DNA of 11,226 nucleotides, from assembly GCA_016193065.1 (NCBI GenBank), contig JACPSX010000002.1, positions 1 to 11,226 on the forward strand. The letters run 5' to 3'. The notes beneath the pieces are model-generated. The model saw nothing but the letters and a program-made list of their open reading frames with translations. It had not been told where the DNA came from and searched no databases. The DNA comes from Candidatus Tectimicrobiota bacterium. Its GTDB lineage: Bacteria; JACPSX01. This document shows, piece by piece, positions 1 to 10,245 of this stretch (the stretch's first letter is position 1; each line of letters opens with the position of its first letter). The position numbers were made by a program, and so were the translations under genes.

Positions 1-849
1 CGCCTGCTGAGCCGCCGCTGCCCCCGCAGTATCCCGCATCGTTACCGCTTCACTTTGCGCCTCCCGCGCCGCCTGCAAGGACGCCTGGGCCTGCACCCCC
101 GCCGCCTGCGCCGTCTGCTGCGCCGCCGCCACCTGCTGCGTGGGCGCCTGGGCCGCCGCCTGCTGCGTCGCCTGCGCCGCCTGCTGCGTCGCCTGCACCG
201 CCTGCTGCGCCGCCGCCACCGCCTGCGCCGCCGCCTGCTGCACCGGGGCCTGCCTAGCCTGCGCCGGCAGTACCACCGGGAGCGTGGGAGAAATCGGCGC
301 TGATGGCACCCAGTTCCCTTGAGTCAGCCCCCCCCCGGTCTGCCCCTGCAATCCAACCCCCAGGTTGCCTGCCGTCCCCCTTAGGGCCGCCACCACCGTG
401 GGCGTCTCCAACGAATGCTCCTTTTCCCCTTCTTTGCTGGTTAAATTAAAGGCAATCTGTCCCAGCAACACCCGGACCTTACGGACCACCACCAAGCGGC
501 GCACAAAAAACCCCCGGCTCTCTTTCTTCTCCGTAATCCGCACGTTGGAGTCCGGAGATACATCCACCACCCCCCCATCGGACCACACCACCCGGGCCCG
601 CCCCTCCTGGGTCACCACCTTGTCCCCGCTGACCAGATCCACAGGCACCCGCTCCACCACCGTCCAGTTCTCCTGGCTCTTCACCCACACCACCCCCTGA
701 AACTGGTCGATCCGCGCTATGGACTCAGTCTGGGCAAACACAGGCGGGGCAATCAGAACGGACCCAACGGTAAAAAGAAACAGCAGGACCACACACTGCG
801 CCAGAGCACGGCTTGAGAAGGAGAAACCTTTCAAGTAGAAGCGCCGCAT
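1..849 (-). CDS. Exported FecR-domain protein with Ala/Gln-rich tail (3' end outside window)
   Basis: The minus-strand frame from ATG 849 stays open for 283 codons to the window edge, so the C-terminus is missing. An AGGAGG ribosome binding site lies 5-6 bases upstream of the ATG. Residues 1-39 form a signal peptide (hydrophobic core about 20-34, likely cleavage after VFA). Residues about 44-160 match a FecR-type domain: a QGVVWV strand, a SGDKVVT segment, a VVWSDGGVVDVSPDSNVRI stretch, and the family's closing ETPTVVAALRGT motif. Residues 197-283 are almost wholly Ala and Gln with loose seven-residue periodicity, probably a long helix. Three Gly codons (172-174) form a run of nine G. FecR-domain proteins are periplasmic or surface sensors or scaffolds; this one has no obvious sigma-factor partner in view. 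The neighbouring CHASE2 cyclase suggests a shared envelope-sensing role. Family call is firm; exact function is unknown. Confidence 0.87.
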   Translation of the reverse strand, partial: MRRFYLKGFSFSSRALAQCVVLLFLFTVGSVLIAPPVFAQTESIARIDQFQGVVWVKSQENWTVVERVPVDLVSGDKVVTQEGRARVVWSDGGVVDVSPDSNVRITEKKESRGFFVRRLVVVRKVRVLLGQIAFNLTSKEGEKEHSLETPTVVAALRGTAGNLGVGLQGQTGGGLTQGNWVPSAPISPTLPVVLPAQARQAPVQQAAAQAVAAAQQAVQATQQAAQATQQAAAQAPTQQVAAAQQTAQAAGVQAQASLQAAREAQSEAVTMRDTAGAAAAQQA

Positions 850-957: not shown

Positions 958-986
958 ATTATAGGAACGAGCCAGGGGAAAAGCAA
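958..986 (-). promoter_or_regulatory. Sigma-70-type promoter of the FecR-domain gene
   Basis: On the minus strand, TTGCTT (981-986) and a perfect TATAAT (958-963) are separated by exactly 17 bp. The predicted start of transcription is near 951, giving a leader of about 100 nt before ATG 849. A CRP-type box sits upstream at the spacing expected for class I activation. The -35 element is imperfect (4 of 6), which fits an activator-dependent promoter. It closely resembles the promoter at 5739-5767. Confidence 0.7.
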
Positions 987-1003
987 TAAATTTATCCTCC
1001 TAC

Positions 1004-1019
1004 AGTGACAACCGTCACA
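1004..1019 (-). promoter_or_regulatory. CRP/FNR-family operator (TGTGA-N6-TCACT)
   Basis: The minus strand reads TGTGA, six bases, TCACT, matching nine of the ten conserved positions of the E. coli CRP consensus TGTGA-N6-TCACA. The core dyad GTGAC-N4-GTCAC is perfect. Its centre (1011.5) is about 60.5 bp upstream of the predicted transcription start and 51 bp from the centre of the -10 hexamer; the lac promoter has about 52. This is the geometry at which CRP activates by contacting the RNA polymerase alpha C-terminal domain. The adjacent adenylate cyclase gene makes a cAMP-dependent regulator the natural candidate. A non-cAMP CRP/FNR-family protein could also bind. Confidence 0.6.
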
Positions 1020-1156: not shown

Positions 1157-3412
1157 CTATTTCGTCTTCATTTCAAAGACCCCATCCCAGTCCACGGGAG
1201 GTGGTTCCACGATCAAGTCCTGGCACCGCTCGACGTACAACTTGCAGACTCCATCAGCGGGATAGATCCCAAGCGCTTTCGTGAACGAATCGATGGCCCG
1301 CTCCCACTGCCGATCCTTGTAGCACCCCATCCCCTCCGTATAGATCCGCAGGAACTCTCCCTCCTCGGGGCTGTAGGCGTCAGACTTTCCCCGCAACTCG
1401 TAGATCCGTACGGGAAGTTTCTTCCCCATGACCCTCACGGAATCCAGCTCCCTGACGCGAAAGGCCCCTTTGACCGCATTTTGGGTGAACTCGCTGATAA
1501 TCACGTTCGTGTGGTACTGCTTGTTGGCACCTTCGAGCCGGGATCCGAGGTTCACGCTGTCACCCATGACGGTATAATCGAACCTCTTGCTCGACCCCAT
1601 GTTCCCCACTACCATGGAACCCGTATTGACGCCAACGCCAATGTCGAGGACAGGAATGTTTTGCTCATTCCACCGCGTCTGCAGACGTTTGAGCTCCGCA
1701 AGCATCTCAAGGGCCACTGTGCACGCTCTGTGCGCGTGATCGGGCTGCGGGATCGGAGCACCAAACACCGCCATGATCGCATCTCCCATGTACTTGTCCA
1801 GGAGGCCGTCTTTGGCCAGGATCAGGTCCGTCATGGCCGTGAGGTACTCGTTCAGCAGGTGCACGAGTGCTTCCGGCTCCAATTTCTCCGAGACGCTCGT
1901 GAACCCGCGGATGTCGGAGAAGAGGACGGTTAGCTCCTTTTTATCTCCTCCCAGCTTGAGCATCTGGGGGTTCTTTAGAACCTCGTTTACCACAGAGGGA
2001 TTCAGGTACTGCTGGAATGCCCCTTTGACCTTCCTCTTCTCCCGCTCTTCCGTCATGAACCGGTAGGATATGACGCCCACGAAGCAGAGAACGATCGAAA
2101 GGGAAGGATAAATGAGGTTCAACCATATCCGGTAGCCGGCAAACATGGCGTACGCAAAATAAAAATACCCTCCCAGAAGGGCCAGAGAAAACACGGGTCC
2201 CCAGAACTTGGGCAATCGGGAAAGCACCACTCCGGACCCAAGTCCAAACAGAAGGACGAAAAACAGATCAAGAAACGTCATCCAATTGGCTCTTTCGAGA
2301 AAGCTTCCGTGGATGATGTTCTCGACCACATTGGCGTGTTTTTCCACTCCCGGGAGCGCCTTGGACAAGGGAGTCACCTTCTGATCGTGCAGCCCCGTAG
2401 CAGTAGCCCCAACAAGGACGGCTTTTCCCTGAAAGGTCTGCGGAGGCACCCGTCCCTCCAGGACATCCACAAAGGAGTAACGGGGAAACGTGTTCGCGTA
2501 CCCGTTGTAATTGATCAGCATGCGCATGCGCTCATCGGTCGGAACAAACACATTGGTCAGGTCTATCCCTTCTCCGAAGTTTGCGATCATCTCCTCTGGA
2601 GACAGCCCCAGGTAAGTTCGCGCCACCTGAAGGGCAAAAGAAGGGTAATAGCTTCCCGGGTACTGAACCAGCAGAATTTCCCAGCGCGCGACTCCGTCGA
2701 TATCCGGCTTCATGTTCGCGTGACCGACAGCTTGCGCACTCCTACCCAGCACCTCGAGGGGAGCGGTGATATTGGTGGCTGAAATTGGGGGGATGAGACG
2801 TGTTACCTGTTTGTTCTTTACGAGCTTGAACTCCGATTTTCTCAAGTAAAGCGGAGCGGGCTTCCCGGTCCGGGACACGCCGTTCGCAGGCGCATCGACC
2901 CCGTCAAAAAACATCGCCAATACAACAGAGCCCGAACCTCTGACGGCCTCGCCGAGGAGGTAGTCGTTGTCTTCTTTCTTCTCGAGTGCTTCCAGGAGCT
3001 TGGAAAACCTTCGCCCCTGGTCGTTCTGCCGCTCAAGCCCAAGGGAGCTGTAATTTTCCCGGAGCATTCGGAACTGTTTGAGATCCGCGCTGACCTCCGG
3101 CTCGCTGAAGATAATATCGAAGCCGACGGCACGCGGTTTCCCCGCCGAAATTTTGTTGATTAGATCCGCGATCCGGGAACGAGGCCAGGGCCACCGGCCA
3201 ATCCGTTCAATACTCTTGTCATCGAGGGCCACGATCACAATCTCGGACCCGACCTTCTTTTGCCCCCGTATCTTGAAGCGCAGATCGAGAGTCTTTAATT
3301 CCAGAGACTCGAACAAGGCCAGGTCAGAACCGATAAAAAGGAGGATTGCCACAAATATGGAGATGAGAACGCTCAGCCAGAACCCCGACATTTTTAAACG
3401 AGGAAACCTCAT
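1157..3412 (-). CDS. CHASE2-domain class III adenylate cyclase
   Basis: A 751-residue membrane receptor cyclase that should convert ATP to cAMP. Order of parts: one N-terminal membrane helix (about 11-29); a periplasmic CHASE2 sensor (about 35-375, with GRWPWPR at 72-78 and VLVGATATGL near 332-341); three membrane helices (about 378-398, 404-424, 429-450); then a cytoplasmic cyclase domain (about 490-675). All catalytic positions are visible: metal-binding Asp500 (FSDIRGF) and Asp544 (KYMGD), purine-specifying Lys540 and Thr614, and transition-state Asn621 and Arg625. The Lys/Thr pair is typical of class IIIb adenylate cyclases rather than guanylate cyclases. A TPR-like helix pair follows (about 700-735). 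ATG 3412 has a GAAGGG motif 7 bases upstream; GTG 3418, two codons earlier, is an alternative. It lies 66 bases after the HEAT gene, probably in the same transcript. The ligand sensed is unknown. Confidence 0.96.
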   Translation of the reverse strand: MRFPRLKMSGFWLSVLISIFVAILLFIGSDLALFESLELKTLDLRFKIRGQKKVGSEIVIVALDDKSIERIGRWPWPRSRIADLINKISAGKPRAVGFDIIFSEPEVSADLKQFRMLRENYSSLGLERQNDQGRRFSKLLEALEKKEDNDYLLGEAVRGSGSVVLAMFFDGVDAPANGVSRTGKPAPLYLRKSEFKLVKNKQVTRLIPPISATNITAPLEVLGRSAQAVGHANMKPDIDGVARWEILLVQYPGSYYPSFALQVARTYLGLSPEEMIANFGEGIDLTNVFVPTDERMRMLINYNGYANTFPRYSFVDVLEGRVPPQTFQGKAVLVGATATGLHDQKVTPLSKALPGVEKHANVVENIIHGSFLERANWMTFLDLFFVLLFGLGSGVVLSRLPKFWGPVFSLALLGGYFYFAYAMFAGYRIWLNLIYPSLSIVLCFVGVISYRFMTEEREKRKVKGAFQQYLNPSVVNEVLKNPQMLKLGGDKKELTVLFSDIRGFTSVSEKLEPEALVHLLNEYLTAMTDLILAKDGLLDKYMGDAIMAVFGAPIPQPDHAHRACTVALEMLAELKRLQTRWNEQNIPVLDIGVGVNTGSMVVGNMGSSKRFDYTVMGDSVNLGSRLEGANKQYHTNVIISEFTQNAVKGAFRVRELDSVRVMGKKLPVRIYELRGKSDAYSPEEGEFLRIYTEGMGCYKDRQWERAIDSFTKALGIYPADGVCKLYVERCQDLIVEPPPVDWDGVFEMKTK

Positions 3413-3478
3413 AGACACACCCTTCTCCGTGGAGATCCGCGGGAAAAATGGCCTTCCACCGGACCATGCCTCATTAAG

Positions 3479-4654
3479 CTATCCTCCCGCTGCCCTCTTC
3501 TTTAACCTTTCGATGGCCCATCGGGCTCGCCTTCCCACCTCGCCTTCCTTTTCTGTTTGCTCGAGGAACATGAGGGGCCCCAGGGCTTCCGGACGACCCG
3601 CCGAAAAAGCCTTAAGGTTCGAATCGCCTCCGGAAAGGCCAGCCACGAGCTTGCCGCTTATCTTCTTCTCGCCGATGAACCCGAGAGAGAAAGCAGCGGA
3701 CTGGCGCACTTCTCCGTTGGAATCGGACAACAATTCGGCCACAGGGCCAGCCGAGTTCTTTCCCCCAATAAATCCGAGGGCACTTGCCGCGTACCTCCGG
3801 ACGGCGGGCGCCTGATCCTTGAGACGCCTCACAAGAGCCCGCTCGGCACGCTCATCGTACACGGCGTTAAACGCCAGCGCGGAAAATGTCCGATGGAGAG
3901 CATTTTTGCTGGTCAGTTCCTGGATCAGAAAAGAGTTCGGGCTTCTTACCTGTGCAACCCGGCGAATGAAATCAATCGCATTGCGGGCGAATACCTGCTG
4001 CTGCTGGTTCTGCCCGTCCTTGGCCTGAGTGAGAAATTGCAGGATGTTCTGGTTCCTTGGGTGCACGATTCCCGCCGCTGCAAAATCCGGAAGGTCCGCT
4101 TTGTTCTCTTGCATTACATTAAGCAGGGCATCGATCACGCGCTCATCCCGGGTCGCCATGAGCGCATGAGCGGCAAACCTCCGCACCCACTCGCTTTCGT
4201 CCCTCAAGTGGTCAACAAGAGCACCGACCCCCTCCTCGTTGTCGGAAAATTTAAAAAAAGCAAGGGACCGTGCCGCGAAAAGCCGCACCTCGTCGTCCGG
4301 ATCCTCAAGCGCTTTCAGGAGTGGCGCCACCGCCCTCCGTTCCCTTAAGTATCCGAGTTCCCTGGCCGCTTCAGCTCTTTGCTCCGGCTTGCCGGTTTTC
4401 AGAACGGTAATCCACCTGTCTCTGGATTGCCGCGTCGAGGGCGCGGTCTTCTTCGGCCCGGCTGCCGGAGCCGGTTCCACCATCCAGCCCAGAAGACATA
4501 CGAGACACAGAACGAGGGACAGAATTGCCCTCCCCCGCTTCGCAACCAACCGGAAGCCTCCCCTCAACTCCACAGGCACTCCTGCACTCCGTTCCGGCAT
4601 CGGGCTTGAGTCGCCTCCCGGGTTATCAAATTCTTTCTGCATGGATACCTTCAT
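3479..4654 (-). CDS. Exported HEAT-repeat protein
   Basis: A 391-residue protein with an N-terminal hydrophobic helix (about 43-59) followed by PAPAA, read as a signal peptide or membrane anchor with an unusually long n-region. Residues about 80-385 are built from HEAT repeats of the PBS-lyase type: recurring helix pairs with Ala-rich first helices and motifs such as DPDDEVRLFAARSLAF, DESEWVRRFAAHALM, LKDQAPAVRRYAASALGFIG and DSNGEVRQSAAFSLGFIG. Such solenoids bind other proteins and have no catalytic site. The start is set at ATG 4654 because it overlaps the upstream CHASE2 stop as ATGA, a classic translational-coupling arrangement; a GTG at 4672 is an in-frame alternative. Placement between two CHASE2 genes suggests it bridges or tunes the sensors. 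That partner role is inference. Confidence 0.87.
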   Translation of the reverse strand: MKVSMQKEFDNPGGDSSPMPERSAGVPVELRGGFRLVAKRGRAILSLVLCLVCLLGWMVEPAPAAGPKKTAPSTRQSRDRWITVLKTGKPEQRAEAARELGYLRERRAVAPLLKALEDPDDEVRLFAARSLAFFKFSDNEEGVGALVDHLRDESEWVRRFAAHALMATRDERVIDALLNVMQENKADLPDFAAAGIVHPRNQNILQFLTQAKDGQNQQQQVFARNAIDFIRRVAQVRSPNSFLIQELTSKNALHRTFSALAFNAVYDERAERALVRRLKDQAPAVRRYAASALGFIGGKNSAGPVAELLSDSNGEVRQSAAFSLGFIGEKKISGKLVAGLSGGDSNLKAFSAGRPEALGPLMFLEQTEKEGEVGRRARWAIERLKKRAAGG

Positions 4655-5661
4655 CTTGCCGGCGAAGGCCACCTCGACAGAAGCGCATCAATCGCCGTAG
4701 CCAGCAGCTCCATCCCCGGGTAGTAAAACGATACGGGCGTGGGATGGTAGTCCGAGAGCCCGGTGGCGTTGACCCCGATAATGACGATCGCCCCCCGAAA
4801 GAGGGAAAGAAAATCCTCTCCGTCGAGCACTCGCGCCGCCGAGACGTGCGAAAAACGGGTGCCCGGAGCCGAAAAAGCAAGGGGAATGTCCCCCGCGGAA
4901 TCGATCCGAATGTTCACTTCCCCCATCTCGATCCGGTCCCCCAGCCTCAGGACCACATTGGACGGTGTCCGGTTCCGGAGCCACATCGCCACGGCCAGCG
5001 GCAGGGAAGGGTACACTTTCCCTTCATATGACACCGCCAGGGTGGCTTTTCTTACCAGCCCTGGACCGCCCTCGCGGGATTCAGGAAACACGTTGACGAA
5101 CCCGAGCCCCGCCGCCTTGCGAGCAAACTGTGGAAGCGGGAACAGCACACTGCTGGCCTCTCGCAGGACGTCATCCCATTCCCTTCCCCTGGCCAGAGCG
5201 TGGTTCCGGAGAAGCGCCGTGCGTTCGGGCTCCGGAGCCGCTCCCGGTATGCCGAACTGAAACGCAAAGGCCAGGAACACGTTCCCTCCCGATCCGATCA
5301 CCTCCGCCAGATCCCGGTCCTTCTCGGGAAATTGCGCATCCTCTTCGCTGAACAGGAGATCGAGGACGACCGCCCTGGGCGAGAACTTTTGAGTACCGCG
5401 GAGGAGCCGAGCCTGGAGATCGCGCGGCCACGGCCACCGTCCAAACTTTCCCAGGCTGGCATCATCAATGTCAACGATGACGAGGGGAGGAGCATCGGCT
5501 GAAAAACTGGCCGCGGGGGTGCAGAAGAGAGCCAGACACACAAACGCGAAAATCACCCGCAGGCGAAAAATCAGCCCTGCATAAAACGGGCCCGTGGAGT
5601 CCCGATCAGAGCAGACCGGAGGACCCGCCGTCGGCGCCCGCAGATCGAACCGCCGGCCCAT
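4651..5661 (-). CDS. Stand-alone CHASE2 sensor protein without output domain
   Basis: The 336-residue product is a CHASE2 sensor domain and little else. A hydrophobic helix at about 35-52 ending in PAASFSA looks like a signal peptide or anchor. The CHASE2 fold runs about 58-325, with DIDDASLGKFGRWPWPR, then VVLDLLFSE, and near the end AIVIIGVNATGLSDYHPTP; each has a counterpart in the cyclase gene downstream. The reading frame stops about ten residues after the domain, before the three membrane helices and effector that CHASE2 receptors normally carry, so it should lie wholly outside the cytoplasm. ATG 5661 has only a weak ribosome binding site; TTG 5673 and an internal GTG (start of VIFAFVCLAL) are alternatives, and the N-terminus is unusual (see the ATG-TAA entry). 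It is coupled to the HEAT gene by ATGA. Likely a decoy, co-receptor or ligand-capture subunit for the cyclase; that is inference. Confidence 0.85.
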   Translation of the reverse strand: MGRRFDLRAPTAGPPVCSDRDSTGPFYAGLIFRLRVIFAFVCLALFCTPAASFSADAPPLVIVDIDDASLGKFGRWPWPRDLQARLLRGTQKFSPRAVVLDLLFSEEDAQFPEKDRDLAEVIGSGGNVFLAFAFQFGIPGAAPEPERTALLRNHALARGREWDDVLREASSVLFPLPQFARKAAGLGFVNVFPESREGGPGLVRKATLAVSYEGKVYPSLPLAVAMWLRNRTPSNVVLRLGDRIEMGEVNIRIDSAGDIPLAFSAPGTRFSHVSAARVLDGEDFLSLFRGAIVIIGVNATGLSDYHPTPVSFYYPGMELLATAIDALLSRWPSPAR

Positions 5662-5718
5662 GGCAAACCCCAAAATGAGCGCGCCAGCGAAAAGGACAAA
5701 CCATAGGGGAAAGCCCCC

Positions 5719-5850: not shown

Positions 5851-6630
5851 TTAACGCCGGGGACGAGGCGACTGCTGAGGCCCCAGGAGCCTCTGCACGA
5901 TTTCGTTTTCCCGGCGCGCCTTGTCTCCCTGTCCCAGCCGGGAATAAATCTGAGCCAGGCCGCTGTGGGCAGCCACCAAGTTCGGATTGATCTCCAAGGC
6001 CTTCTCGAGAGCCTGGATAGCCTCCTTCCATTGCTGCTGCCTCATGAGAGCCGAGCCCAGGTTGAGCTGGGCCTCGGCGTAGCGCGGGTTGAGGCGCAGG
6101 GCCTGCCGGTACTCGCTAATCGCTCCCTTGAACTGGGCCTTAGCCCCGTAAGCGGCGCCCAGGTTGTTATGAGCTTCAGCGTTCGAGGGATCGAGTCGCA
6201 GAGCCTGCTTATTGGCCTCGATGGCCTCGTCGTACATCCCCCTCATGGCATAAACGACCCCCAGATTGTAGTGAGCCCGGCTGTTCTTGGGGTCAACGGC
6301 GATGATCTCTTGGAGCTCCCGGACCGCCTCGTCCAAAAACCCGGCCTGGCCGTAGCCGATGGCCAAGCGCAGCCGTCTCTCCAGATAATTGGGGTCCGTT
6401 TGCAGGACCTGGGGACGGTTTGGAGACCCGCCGCTGACCAGGACGACCGGAGCGCCGCTGGTAAATGCACGGATCACCAACAGCCACAGGGCCAGGGCAA
6501 TGGCTCCCAAGAGAATCTTTCCGGTAAGATCAAAGGTCATGACCCGGAGATGGTGAGAAGATTCTCCTCCTCTGAACCTTTCTTTTGCTTTCTGCAACTG
6601 AATCAAAACGGAATGAACCAGCGGAGCCAT
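5851..6630 (-). CDS. Membrane-anchored TPR-repeat protein
   Basis: A 259-residue protein with a short cytoplasmic N-terminus, one membrane helix (about 38-55, KILLGAIALALWLLVIRAF) and at least four tetratricopeptide repeats from about 78 to 245. The repeats carry typical TPR signatures: AHYNLGVVYAMRGMYDEAIE, AHNNLGAAYGAKAQFKGAIS, AQLNLGSALMRQQQWKEAIQ and AHSGLAQIYSRLGQGDKARR, each followed by a xxDP or xxNP turn. TPR arrays are protein-binding scaffolds. ATG 6630 is preferred because an AAAGG motif lies 8 bases upstream and a possible promoter sits at the right distance. ATG 6540, directly before the membrane helix, would give 229 residues. It precedes the CHASE2 operon on the same strand but is separated from that promoter by under 100 bases, so it may belong to the cassette. 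No partner can be named. Confidence 0.86.
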   Translation of the reverse strand: MAPLVHSVLIQLQKAKERFRGGESSHHLRVMTFDLTGKILLGAIALALWLLVIRAFTSGAPVVLVSGGSPNRPQVLQTDPNYLERRLRLAIGYGQAGFLDEAVRELQEIIAVDPKNSRAHYNLGVVYAMRGMYDEAIEANKQALRLDPSNAEAHNNLGAAYGAKAQFKGAISEYRQALRLNPRYAEAQLNLGSALMRQQQWKEAIQALEKALEINPNLVAAHSGLAQIYSRLGQGDKARRENEIVQRLLGPQQSPRPRR

Positions 6631-6683
6631 TTTCACGACCTTTTTCCCTTGGAAGCAATTCAACTGAATCGAATTGCGGCCTT

Positions 6684-8869: not shown

Positions 8870-9841
8870 CTAATCCACACTGCGCAAAAATTCATCCTTG
8901 GGCATTTGTTCCAGGATCTTCATCTCCACATTCTTCTGGATTAACAACTTCGTGTTCTCCAGAAGCTTTGGAGCCCAGCCCTCTATAAAGATCCCCGGCA
9001 TACGGGAAGTGACCAGTTTCATTTCCTCAGGCGTTTTGACTCCCAGGAAATCGTTTTGCTCCTCTATGATTTTAGCAGGGTTTGTCTTGAGCATGCGCAC
9101 CCCCTCGGTAAATGCCCGCCCCAATCCCCTAGCGGCTTCCAGGTTTTTATCAATCCATCCCTTGTGTGCGGCGATACCGATAATCAGCAAGGGCTGCCCC
9201 GTTTCGCTGCGCCAGAGGTCGTTAAAGGTGGCGGTTTCCCGGGCCTGGTTGGCGGCGATCAGCTTGGAGGTGTTCGCATCAAACTGGCCGATGGCATCCA
9301 CGTCCTTGCGAAGGAGAAACGCGTTCAAGGCCTGAGGTGTGCCAAAGGTCAGCTTATAATCTTTCTCCACGTCGCCTCCCCGCATCTTCACAATCGTGGC
9401 AAAGGAGGTGTACATGGCCGAGACCCGGGCCAGCAAGCCCAGCTTCTTCCCCTTCAGGTCATCCACGGTTCGCAGCGGCGATTCGGGGGGGACGAGAATT
9501 GAAAAGTGGCTCAGCATGATCGGGTGGAAAATTTGGACCTTTTGCCCTTTCAGATTGGCCCGGGCTGCCGAAACGGGGGCAAAAATCCCCGCATCGACCG
9601 TTTTAAAGAAGACGGCCTCCTCTCCCTTGGCCGGATCGAAGTACTTGAAGTCGATGGCAAGCCCGTGCTTCTTGTCGAGCCCGCGACCGTCGATGATCTT
9701 GCTGATGAGCCCCGCCGCTGCCCCAGCGCTAGTGGTCGAAACCGTCACCTTCTTTAAGTCCTGGGCCCAAGTGCTTCCAGCAAAAAGCACAAAGGCAACC
9801 AAGGTGCAAAAGGCCCCTGCGATCCTGCGATCTCGATCCAT
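8870..9841 (-). CDS. Periplasmic substrate-binding protein of NitT/TauT-type importer
   Basis: A 323-residue exported protein that should capture the substrate and deliver it to the permease. Residues 1-26 are a signal peptide (core about 9-21, cleavage likely after STWA). No lipobox Cys follows, so it should be soluble. The mature part resembles the NMT1/THI5-like, SsuA-like fold: an early KVTVSTTSAGAAAG strand and loop, then VDAGIFAPVSAARA, DDLKGKKLGLL, and a region around FDANTSKLIAANQARE. ATG 9841 is preceded by a strong GGGGGAG ribosome binding site 5 bases away, so the longer open frame to 10117, which crosses the promoter and a repeat, is not used. It is the first gene of the operon. 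Candidates for substrate are sulfonates, nitrate, pyrimidine precursors or other small organics; the sequence does not decide. Confidence 0.93.
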   Translation of the reverse strand: MDRDRRIAGAFCTLVAFVLFAGSTWAQDLKKVTVSTTSAGAAAGLISKIIDGRGLDKKHGLAIDFKYFDPAKGEEAVFFKTVDAGIFAPVSAARANLKGQKVQIFHPIMLSHFSILVPPESPLRTVDDLKGKKLGLLARVSAMYTSFATIVKMRGGDVEKDYKLTFGTPQALNAFLLRKDVDAIGQFDANTSKLIAANQARETATFNDLWRSETGQPLLIIGIAAHKGWIDKNLEAARGLGRAFTEGVRMLKTNPAKIIEEQNDFLGVKTPEEMKLVTSRMPGIFIEGWAPKLLENTKLLIQKNVEMKILEQMPKDEFLRSVD

Positions 9842-9864
9842 GGTTGCTCCCCCTTGTCGCGATG

Positions 9865-9878
9865 ATTTCCCGGGAAAT
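9865..9878. promoter_or_regulatory. Perfect 14-bp palindrome, candidate operator of the ABC operon
   Basis: ATTTCCCGGGAAAT is a perfect palindrome lying about 7 to 20 bases downstream of the predicted transcription start of the importer operon. A repressor bound there would block initiation or early elongation. The regulator is not encoded in view. Confidence 0.45.
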
Positions 9879-9890
9879 AAGAGTTTCAAA

Positions 9891-9919
9891 AATCTACCAA
9901 AACCCCTCCCATCTGTCAA
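9891..9919 (-). promoter_or_regulatory. Sigma-70-type promoter of the ABC importer operon
   Basis: The minus strand has TTGACA (9914-9919), 17 bp, then TAGATT (9891-9896, four of six). Transcription would start near 9884, giving a leader of about 43 nt that contains the palindrome and the GGGGGAG ribosome binding site. Confidence 0.6.
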
Positions 9920-9953
9920 TTCCTCCTCGGCTTCTTGAAGCTGGCGCGACAGA

Positions 9954-10003
9954 GGGCACCCACCTGCCTGCCGCGGCGCAGGCAGGCGCAGGGGTGCCCC
10001 TAC
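9954..10003 (-). repeat. REP-like palindrome with GTAG head
   Basis: Read on the minus strand, GTAG (10003-10000) is followed directly by an arm GGGCACCC (9999-9992), a short unpaired stretch, CCTGCCTGC (9986-9978), a 6-nt loop, GCAGGCAGG (9971-9963) and GGGTGCCC (9961-9954). The two arms pair over 8 plus 9 bp with a small asymmetric bulge. A GTAG tetranucleotide at the foot of a GC-rich hairpin is the form of REP elements mobilised by RAYT transposases. No transposase and no second copy lie in the window. Confidence 0.5.
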
Positions 10004-10020
10004 GCGGTAGTCTTCAGTCC

Positions 10021-10130
10021 GAGGGGGTAGCTCCCGTAGGCGATCTAAGCGGTTGCGAGGAAGAGAACTCTCAATCCGGCCGACACAACTCACGTCGCAA
10101 GCGCTTCGTGAGCCCAAGGGAGCTCCCCCG
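10021..10130. other. Possible structured RNA or imperfect long stem
   Basis: GGGGGTAGCTCCC (10023-10035) pairs with GGGAGCTCCCCC (10118-10129) over 12 bp with one bulged T. Inside lies a 6-bp hairpin CTCACG/CGTGAG (10089-10094, 10107-10112) with a 12-nt loop, and a weak GAGA/TCTC pairing near 10062-10072. It could be a leader structure for the small downstream gene, an uncharacterised RNA, or a remnant of a mobile element. It matches no RNA family I recognise. Confidence 0.3.
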
Positions 10131-10245
10131 AGGAACTGATGAGGGAGGGCAGCAATTCCTCGCTAGAAAAAGGGGATGGGCAAGCGGCAGAGTCCCTTGT
10201 AATTCTCCAGCACCCGTGGTAAACAGGGGCAGGAGGATTTGGGTC

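Follow-up and report, generated by a model that had tools for sequence, protein, structure and literature searches.

A CRP-like palindrome between a CHASE2 adenylate cyclase gene and fecR in a Candidatus Tectimicrobiota genome: a plausible, unproven cAMP-dependent switch

Organization of the locus

The window, i.e. the whole 11,226-nt stretch of DNA analysed here, carries on its minus strand a CHASE2 adenylate cyclase gene followed downstream by a gene for a FecR-domain protein. The features around this pair are listed below.

1..849, minus strand: FecR-domain protein (PF04773) with a signal peptide and an Ala/Gln-rich C-terminal part, truncated by the contig end
856..861, minus strand: Shine-Dalgarno sequence AGGAGG ahead of the FecR ATG at 849, found by reading
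958..963, minus strand: -10 hexamer TATAAT, perfect, read from the sequence
981..986, minus strand: -35-like hexamer TTGCTT, poor (3/6 matches), with a 17-bp spacer, found by reading
1004..1019, minus strand: CRP-like box TGTGACGGTTGTCACT, centre 1011.5, minus-strand reading 1019-1004
1157..3418, minus strand: CHASE2 sensor plus class III adenylate cyclase (CHASE2 E 9e-70, Guanylate_cyc E 2e-27)
3479..4672, minus strand: HEAT-repeat protein, upstream of the cyclase on the same strand
4651..5673, minus strand: second CHASE2 protein, without a cyclase domain
5851..6663, minus strand: TPR protein with a hydrophobic N-terminal segment

The cyclase gene ends at 1157, and the intergenic region between it and fecR measures 307 bp. 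Judged from the protein sequence, the presence of both CHASE2 and a class III cyclase domain is beyond doubt. An earlier note on this DNA had placed a cyclase with adenylate-specific residues next upstream of the box, and this was borne out, as the adenylate-type Lys (in DKYMGD) and Asp (in VMGDSVNLGSR) are both present. The catalytic domain could be aligned with CyaB and cyanobacterial cyclases, among which one Cya2-type PDB chain has Glu for the DKYMGD Lys. The envelope protein target named in the same note also corresponds to what lies downstream of the box, namely a predicted periplasmic FecR-domain protein, whose PF04773 match (E 8e-5) falls slightly short of the Pfam cut-off. This fecR is a single copy in the genome. 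At least two further cyclase-domain genes were found in the genome (contigs C259 and C215), and no phosphodiesterase was recognised within the window.

The window also contains one copy (about 10018-10140, minus strand) of an interspersed repeat of about 120-160 bp, which has about 45 genomic copies of 74-96% identity, nearly all of them intergenic. The repeat consensus forms a long, imperfect palindrome with a predicted fold of -72 kcal/mol on one strand and resembles REP/BIME or MITE elements; the copy at about 10018-10140 had no match in Rfam. Because the TTG-start ORF at 8870-10117 extends into this repeat, the real start codon of the ORF probably lies further downstream.

The CRP-like box and the fecR promoter

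The minus strand across box and promoter reads AAAATGTGACGGTTGTCACTGTAGG...CCTATAATTAGG. The box at 1019-1004 differs from TGTGA-N6-TCACA by a single mismatch, and within it GTGAC-N4-GTCAC forms an inverted repeat without any mismatch. Its centre is 51 bp away from that of the TATAAT at 963-958, so the box would be placed at -60.5 if this hexamer is used. The same arrangement, a TGTGA-type box 51 bp from a perfect TATAAT at about -60.5, had been described in the earlier note and was thus reproduced on the minus strand. No other hexamer on the minus strand of the intergenic region matches the -10 consensus at 5/6 or better. Class I CRP promoters of E. coli (lac type) have TGTGA-N6-TCACA near -61.5, a -10 and a weak -35. 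By geometry with the predicted start, the box at -60.5 would occupy such a class I position near -61.5, on the right helical face. The fecR leader, from the predicted start to the ATG at 849, would be about 100 nt long.

A standard sigma-70 consensus scan detected no promoter at the box/TATAAT region. A weak -35 together with an empty promoter scan is normal for activator-dependent promoters, yet it is no evidence for one. Two other candidates for the region were rejected: the box is not within a dispersed repeat, the intergenic region being unique in the genome, and the 5' leader of fecR gave no Rfam match and an ordinary folding energy (z 0.38), which speaks against a riboswitch or other RNA structure there.

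CRP/FNR regulators of the genome

Three CRP/FNR proteins with an HTH, on contigs C83, C182 and C293, are encoded in the source genome, which is 86% complete and comprises 2.9 Mb in 294 contigs. The objection that no CRP/FNR regulator might be at hand thus fails because there are three of them, and the search for CRP-family proteins suggested in the earlier note led to one, C83, with matching DNA-contact residues. C83 is the only one of the three to combine a CRP-type recognition helix with the cAMP phosphate pocket: the equivalents of R180/E181/R185 (DNA contact) and of G71/E72/R82/S83 (phosphate pocket) are kept. Both of its adenine contacts are changed (T127A, S128N); M. tuberculosis CRP, among the best solved relatives of C83, has N aligned at the S128 position. 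C182 and C293 carry V and P at position 180, respectively, and R82/S83 are missing in both. In this family R180 reads G, and G is present in both half-sites of the box. CRP is the NCBIfam model nearest to C83, with a score far under the equivalog cut-off, and the upstream region of the C83 crp gene itself contains no box.

Chance estimates and genome-wide counts

At no more than one mismatch, the box is the sole match in the whole window, where shuffling gives 0.14 expected matches and at least one match in 26 of 200 shuffles. When the 307-bp intergenic region was shuffled (Markov-1), a box occurred in 576 of 200,000 shuffles (0.29%), a box accompanied by a -10 of 5/6 or better, phased for any class I/II position, in 8 of 200,000, and a box with a phased perfect TATAAT in 0 of 200,000. 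These p-values are post hoc, because the box was chosen after the window had been read.

In the whole genome, 38 sites were found at no more than one mismatch, compared with 19 for a reversed control pattern, and the majority of the 38 are intragenic. A phased -10 accompanies two of the 38, i.e. the window box and a site on C291 (at -72.5). By a symmetric CRP matrix, our own approximation of the E. coli consensus, only two sites in the 867 kb sampled score higher than the window site, which is the best of those in promoter regions. Promoters showed no enrichment: in the unbiased sampled gaps no site exceeded 12 bits, where 2.25 were expected. This result applies to an E. coli-like consensus, from which that of the host may differ. 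The sample for this comparison covers about 30% of the genome, taken as stretches; contigs with known sites were left out because the sample partly favours them, and promoter gaps were defined by gene calls from a simple codon-bias script. Hence, the window site is locally striking, and the genome gives no sign of an E. coli-consensus regulon. As missing enrichment is a property of the regulon, it weakens the operator claim and still leaves room for a single site.

Two further contigs carry CRP-like sites of their own. On C161 (L041 166-181), a CRP-like box TGTGATCCCCATCACT stands directly upstream of a sigma-54-like promoter TGGCATGAGGGTTGCT, and the gene that this promoter precedes encodes a prepilin N_methyl motif. 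On C291 (L167 1501-1557), two CRP-like palindromes with one mismatch each lie 41 bp apart ahead of an alanine dehydrogenase gene; one of the two has the TATATT that places it at -72.5.

Relatives of the cyclase-fecR pair

In 19 other loci, which carry the labels of several phyla, a fecR homologue adjoins a CHASE2 cyclase gene or lies close to one. In 17 of the 19, fecR is upstream of the cyclase and co-directional; in the other two it is downstream on the opposite strand; the order cyclase-then-fecR on one strand occurs in none. Upstream of the fecR homologues, all from other phyla, there was no box at one mismatch, and at two mismatches three were found versus 2.1 expected. Thus the comparison among relatives that the earlier note had proposed returned no box beyond chance and the same gene order nowhere. 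Boxless relatives are weak evidence against the box, because those genomes belong to other phyla.

The nearest cyclases, at 43-50% identity, belong to Deltaproteobacteria, Syntrophaceae among them. In several MAGs of this class, of which one bears the label Syntrophaceae, an alanine racemase gene rather than fecR directly follows the CHASE2 cyclase (L045, L049, L054, L058). Similar fecR - CHASE2 cyclase pairs were also seen on MAG contigs labelled as Woesearchaeota, Nanoarchaeota and Thermoplasmata (L092, L094, L095, L098, L102, L107, L121), which are likely misbinned bacterial contigs or cases of gene transfer.

Operator or coincidence

We tentatively read the palindrome as a class I operator for C83, the single CRP-type regulator of the genome, with confidence a little short of even. 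A chance palindrome is about as likely: in that case either a constitutive promoter or transcription running on from the cyclase gene would express fecR, and FecR would be tied to the cyclase as a protein, the periplasmic partner of CHASE2, and not through transcription. One match per window is unremarkable (26/200 shuffles), the 38 genomic matches are mostly intragenic, promoter regions show no enrichment, the fecR relatives of other phyla do not conserve the box, and no terminator was detected from the cyclase gene to the box, as read-through would have it. What speaks against chance is the joint rarity of an intergenic site and exact phasing with a perfect TATAAT (8/200,000), together with the presence of C83 as a matching CRP-type regulator.

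The box might instead be read by another dimeric regulator in response to a redox or other signal and not cAMP, either the FNR/FixK-like C182 or C293 (TTGAC/TTGAT-N4 sites) or an unrelated reader of GTGAC-N4-GTCAC. We consider this distinctly unlikely. Two FNR/FixK-like proteins are encoded in the genome, and GTGAC-N4-GTCAC is a generic Crp/Fnr-superfamily shape, one base per half from TTGAC-N4-GTCAA; however, both half-sites have the G that R180 reads, and C182 and C293 have V and P in place of this residue. A role of the inverted repeat as an RNA hairpin, at the end of the cyclase transcript or in a leader element, instead of as a DNA operator is very improbable. A 5-bp stem with a 4-nt loop can form on either strand, but on the minus strand no T-run follows the repeat, the predicted leader beyond the -10 folds with ordinary stability (z 0.38), and Rfam returned no family.

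Proposed circuit

If the palindrome is an operator for C83, the CHASE2 cyclase, or another cyclase, would raise cAMP, and the C83 CRP-cAMP complex would bind the box at -60.5. Bound CRP would bring RNA polymerase to a promoter whose -10 is good and whose -35 is poor, and fecR, the putative periplasmic partner of the CHASE2 sensor, would be switched on. Binding, cAMP dependence, activation and any FecR feedback on the sensor are steps that we infer; that FecR acts back on the cyclase is speculative. The local feed-forward circuit of the earlier note stands in part: its parts, its geometry and an experimentally studied precedent in S. meliloti (PMC5498481) favour it, while "local" is unsupported because cAMP diffuses, the crp gene lies on a different contig and the genome has two or more additional cyclase-domain genes.

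Comparison with known systems

Compared with the E. coli class I promoters, the window box is one base off, its position of -60.5 is only predicted, and the host is unrelated.

In Campylobacterota, CHASE2 cyclase genes form clusters with genes for a FecR protein, a TPR protein and a phosphodiesterase (PMC9239204). The window likewise groups CHASE2 adenylate cyclase, FecR-domain and TPR genes, with HEAT and second CHASE2 proteins in place of the phosphodiesterase reported there. A CRP box is not described for the Campylobacterota cluster in the passages of PMC9239204 consulted.

In S. meliloti, Clr (SMc02175, CRP-like), CyaD1 (SMc02176, a CHASE2 adenylate cyclase) and SMc02177 (FecR domain) have consecutive locus tags (PMC5498481); CHASE2 in CyaD1 is also assigned in PMC13001267. 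SMc02177 is activated by Clr and cAMP, a Clr-box is predicted in its promoter, and signal perception in the tests did not require SMc02177 (PMC5498481). As in the window, a CHASE2 adenylate cyclase gene is found in the neighbourhood of a FecR-domain gene, and the core of the box, GTGACGGTTGTCAC, conforms to the core of the Clr motif, GTNNCNNNNGNNAC (PMC10127613), a loose pattern with six fixed bases. The differences are that clr adjoins cyaD1 whereas crp of the window genome sits on another contig, and that smc02177 has its promoter in the gap towards smc02178 whereas the window fecR is downstream of the cyclase. Unlike the S. meliloti case, the putative operator here is of the E. coli TGTGA type.

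That FecR and CHASE2 cyclase genes are associated is known from S. meliloti and Campylobacterota, and control of such a fecR by cAMP from S. meliloti, so the circuit idea is not new. That CHASE2 cyclase, CRP and FecR form here a feed-forward circuit of independent origin or anciently related to Sinorhizobium CyaD1-Clr-SMc02177, as part of a widespread design that puts the periplasmic partner of the sensor itself under cAMP, is rather unlikely in our estimate. If real, the switch would show that distant environmental bacteria, too, place the FecR partner of CHASE2 cyclases under cAMP control, as has so far been known from a legume symbiont, and FecR function in CHASE2 cyclase modules would become testable as a common component. 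The switch is thus a plausible, unproven addition to the arrangement of CHASE2 cyclase, CRP-like regulator and FecR in Sinorhizobium meliloti.
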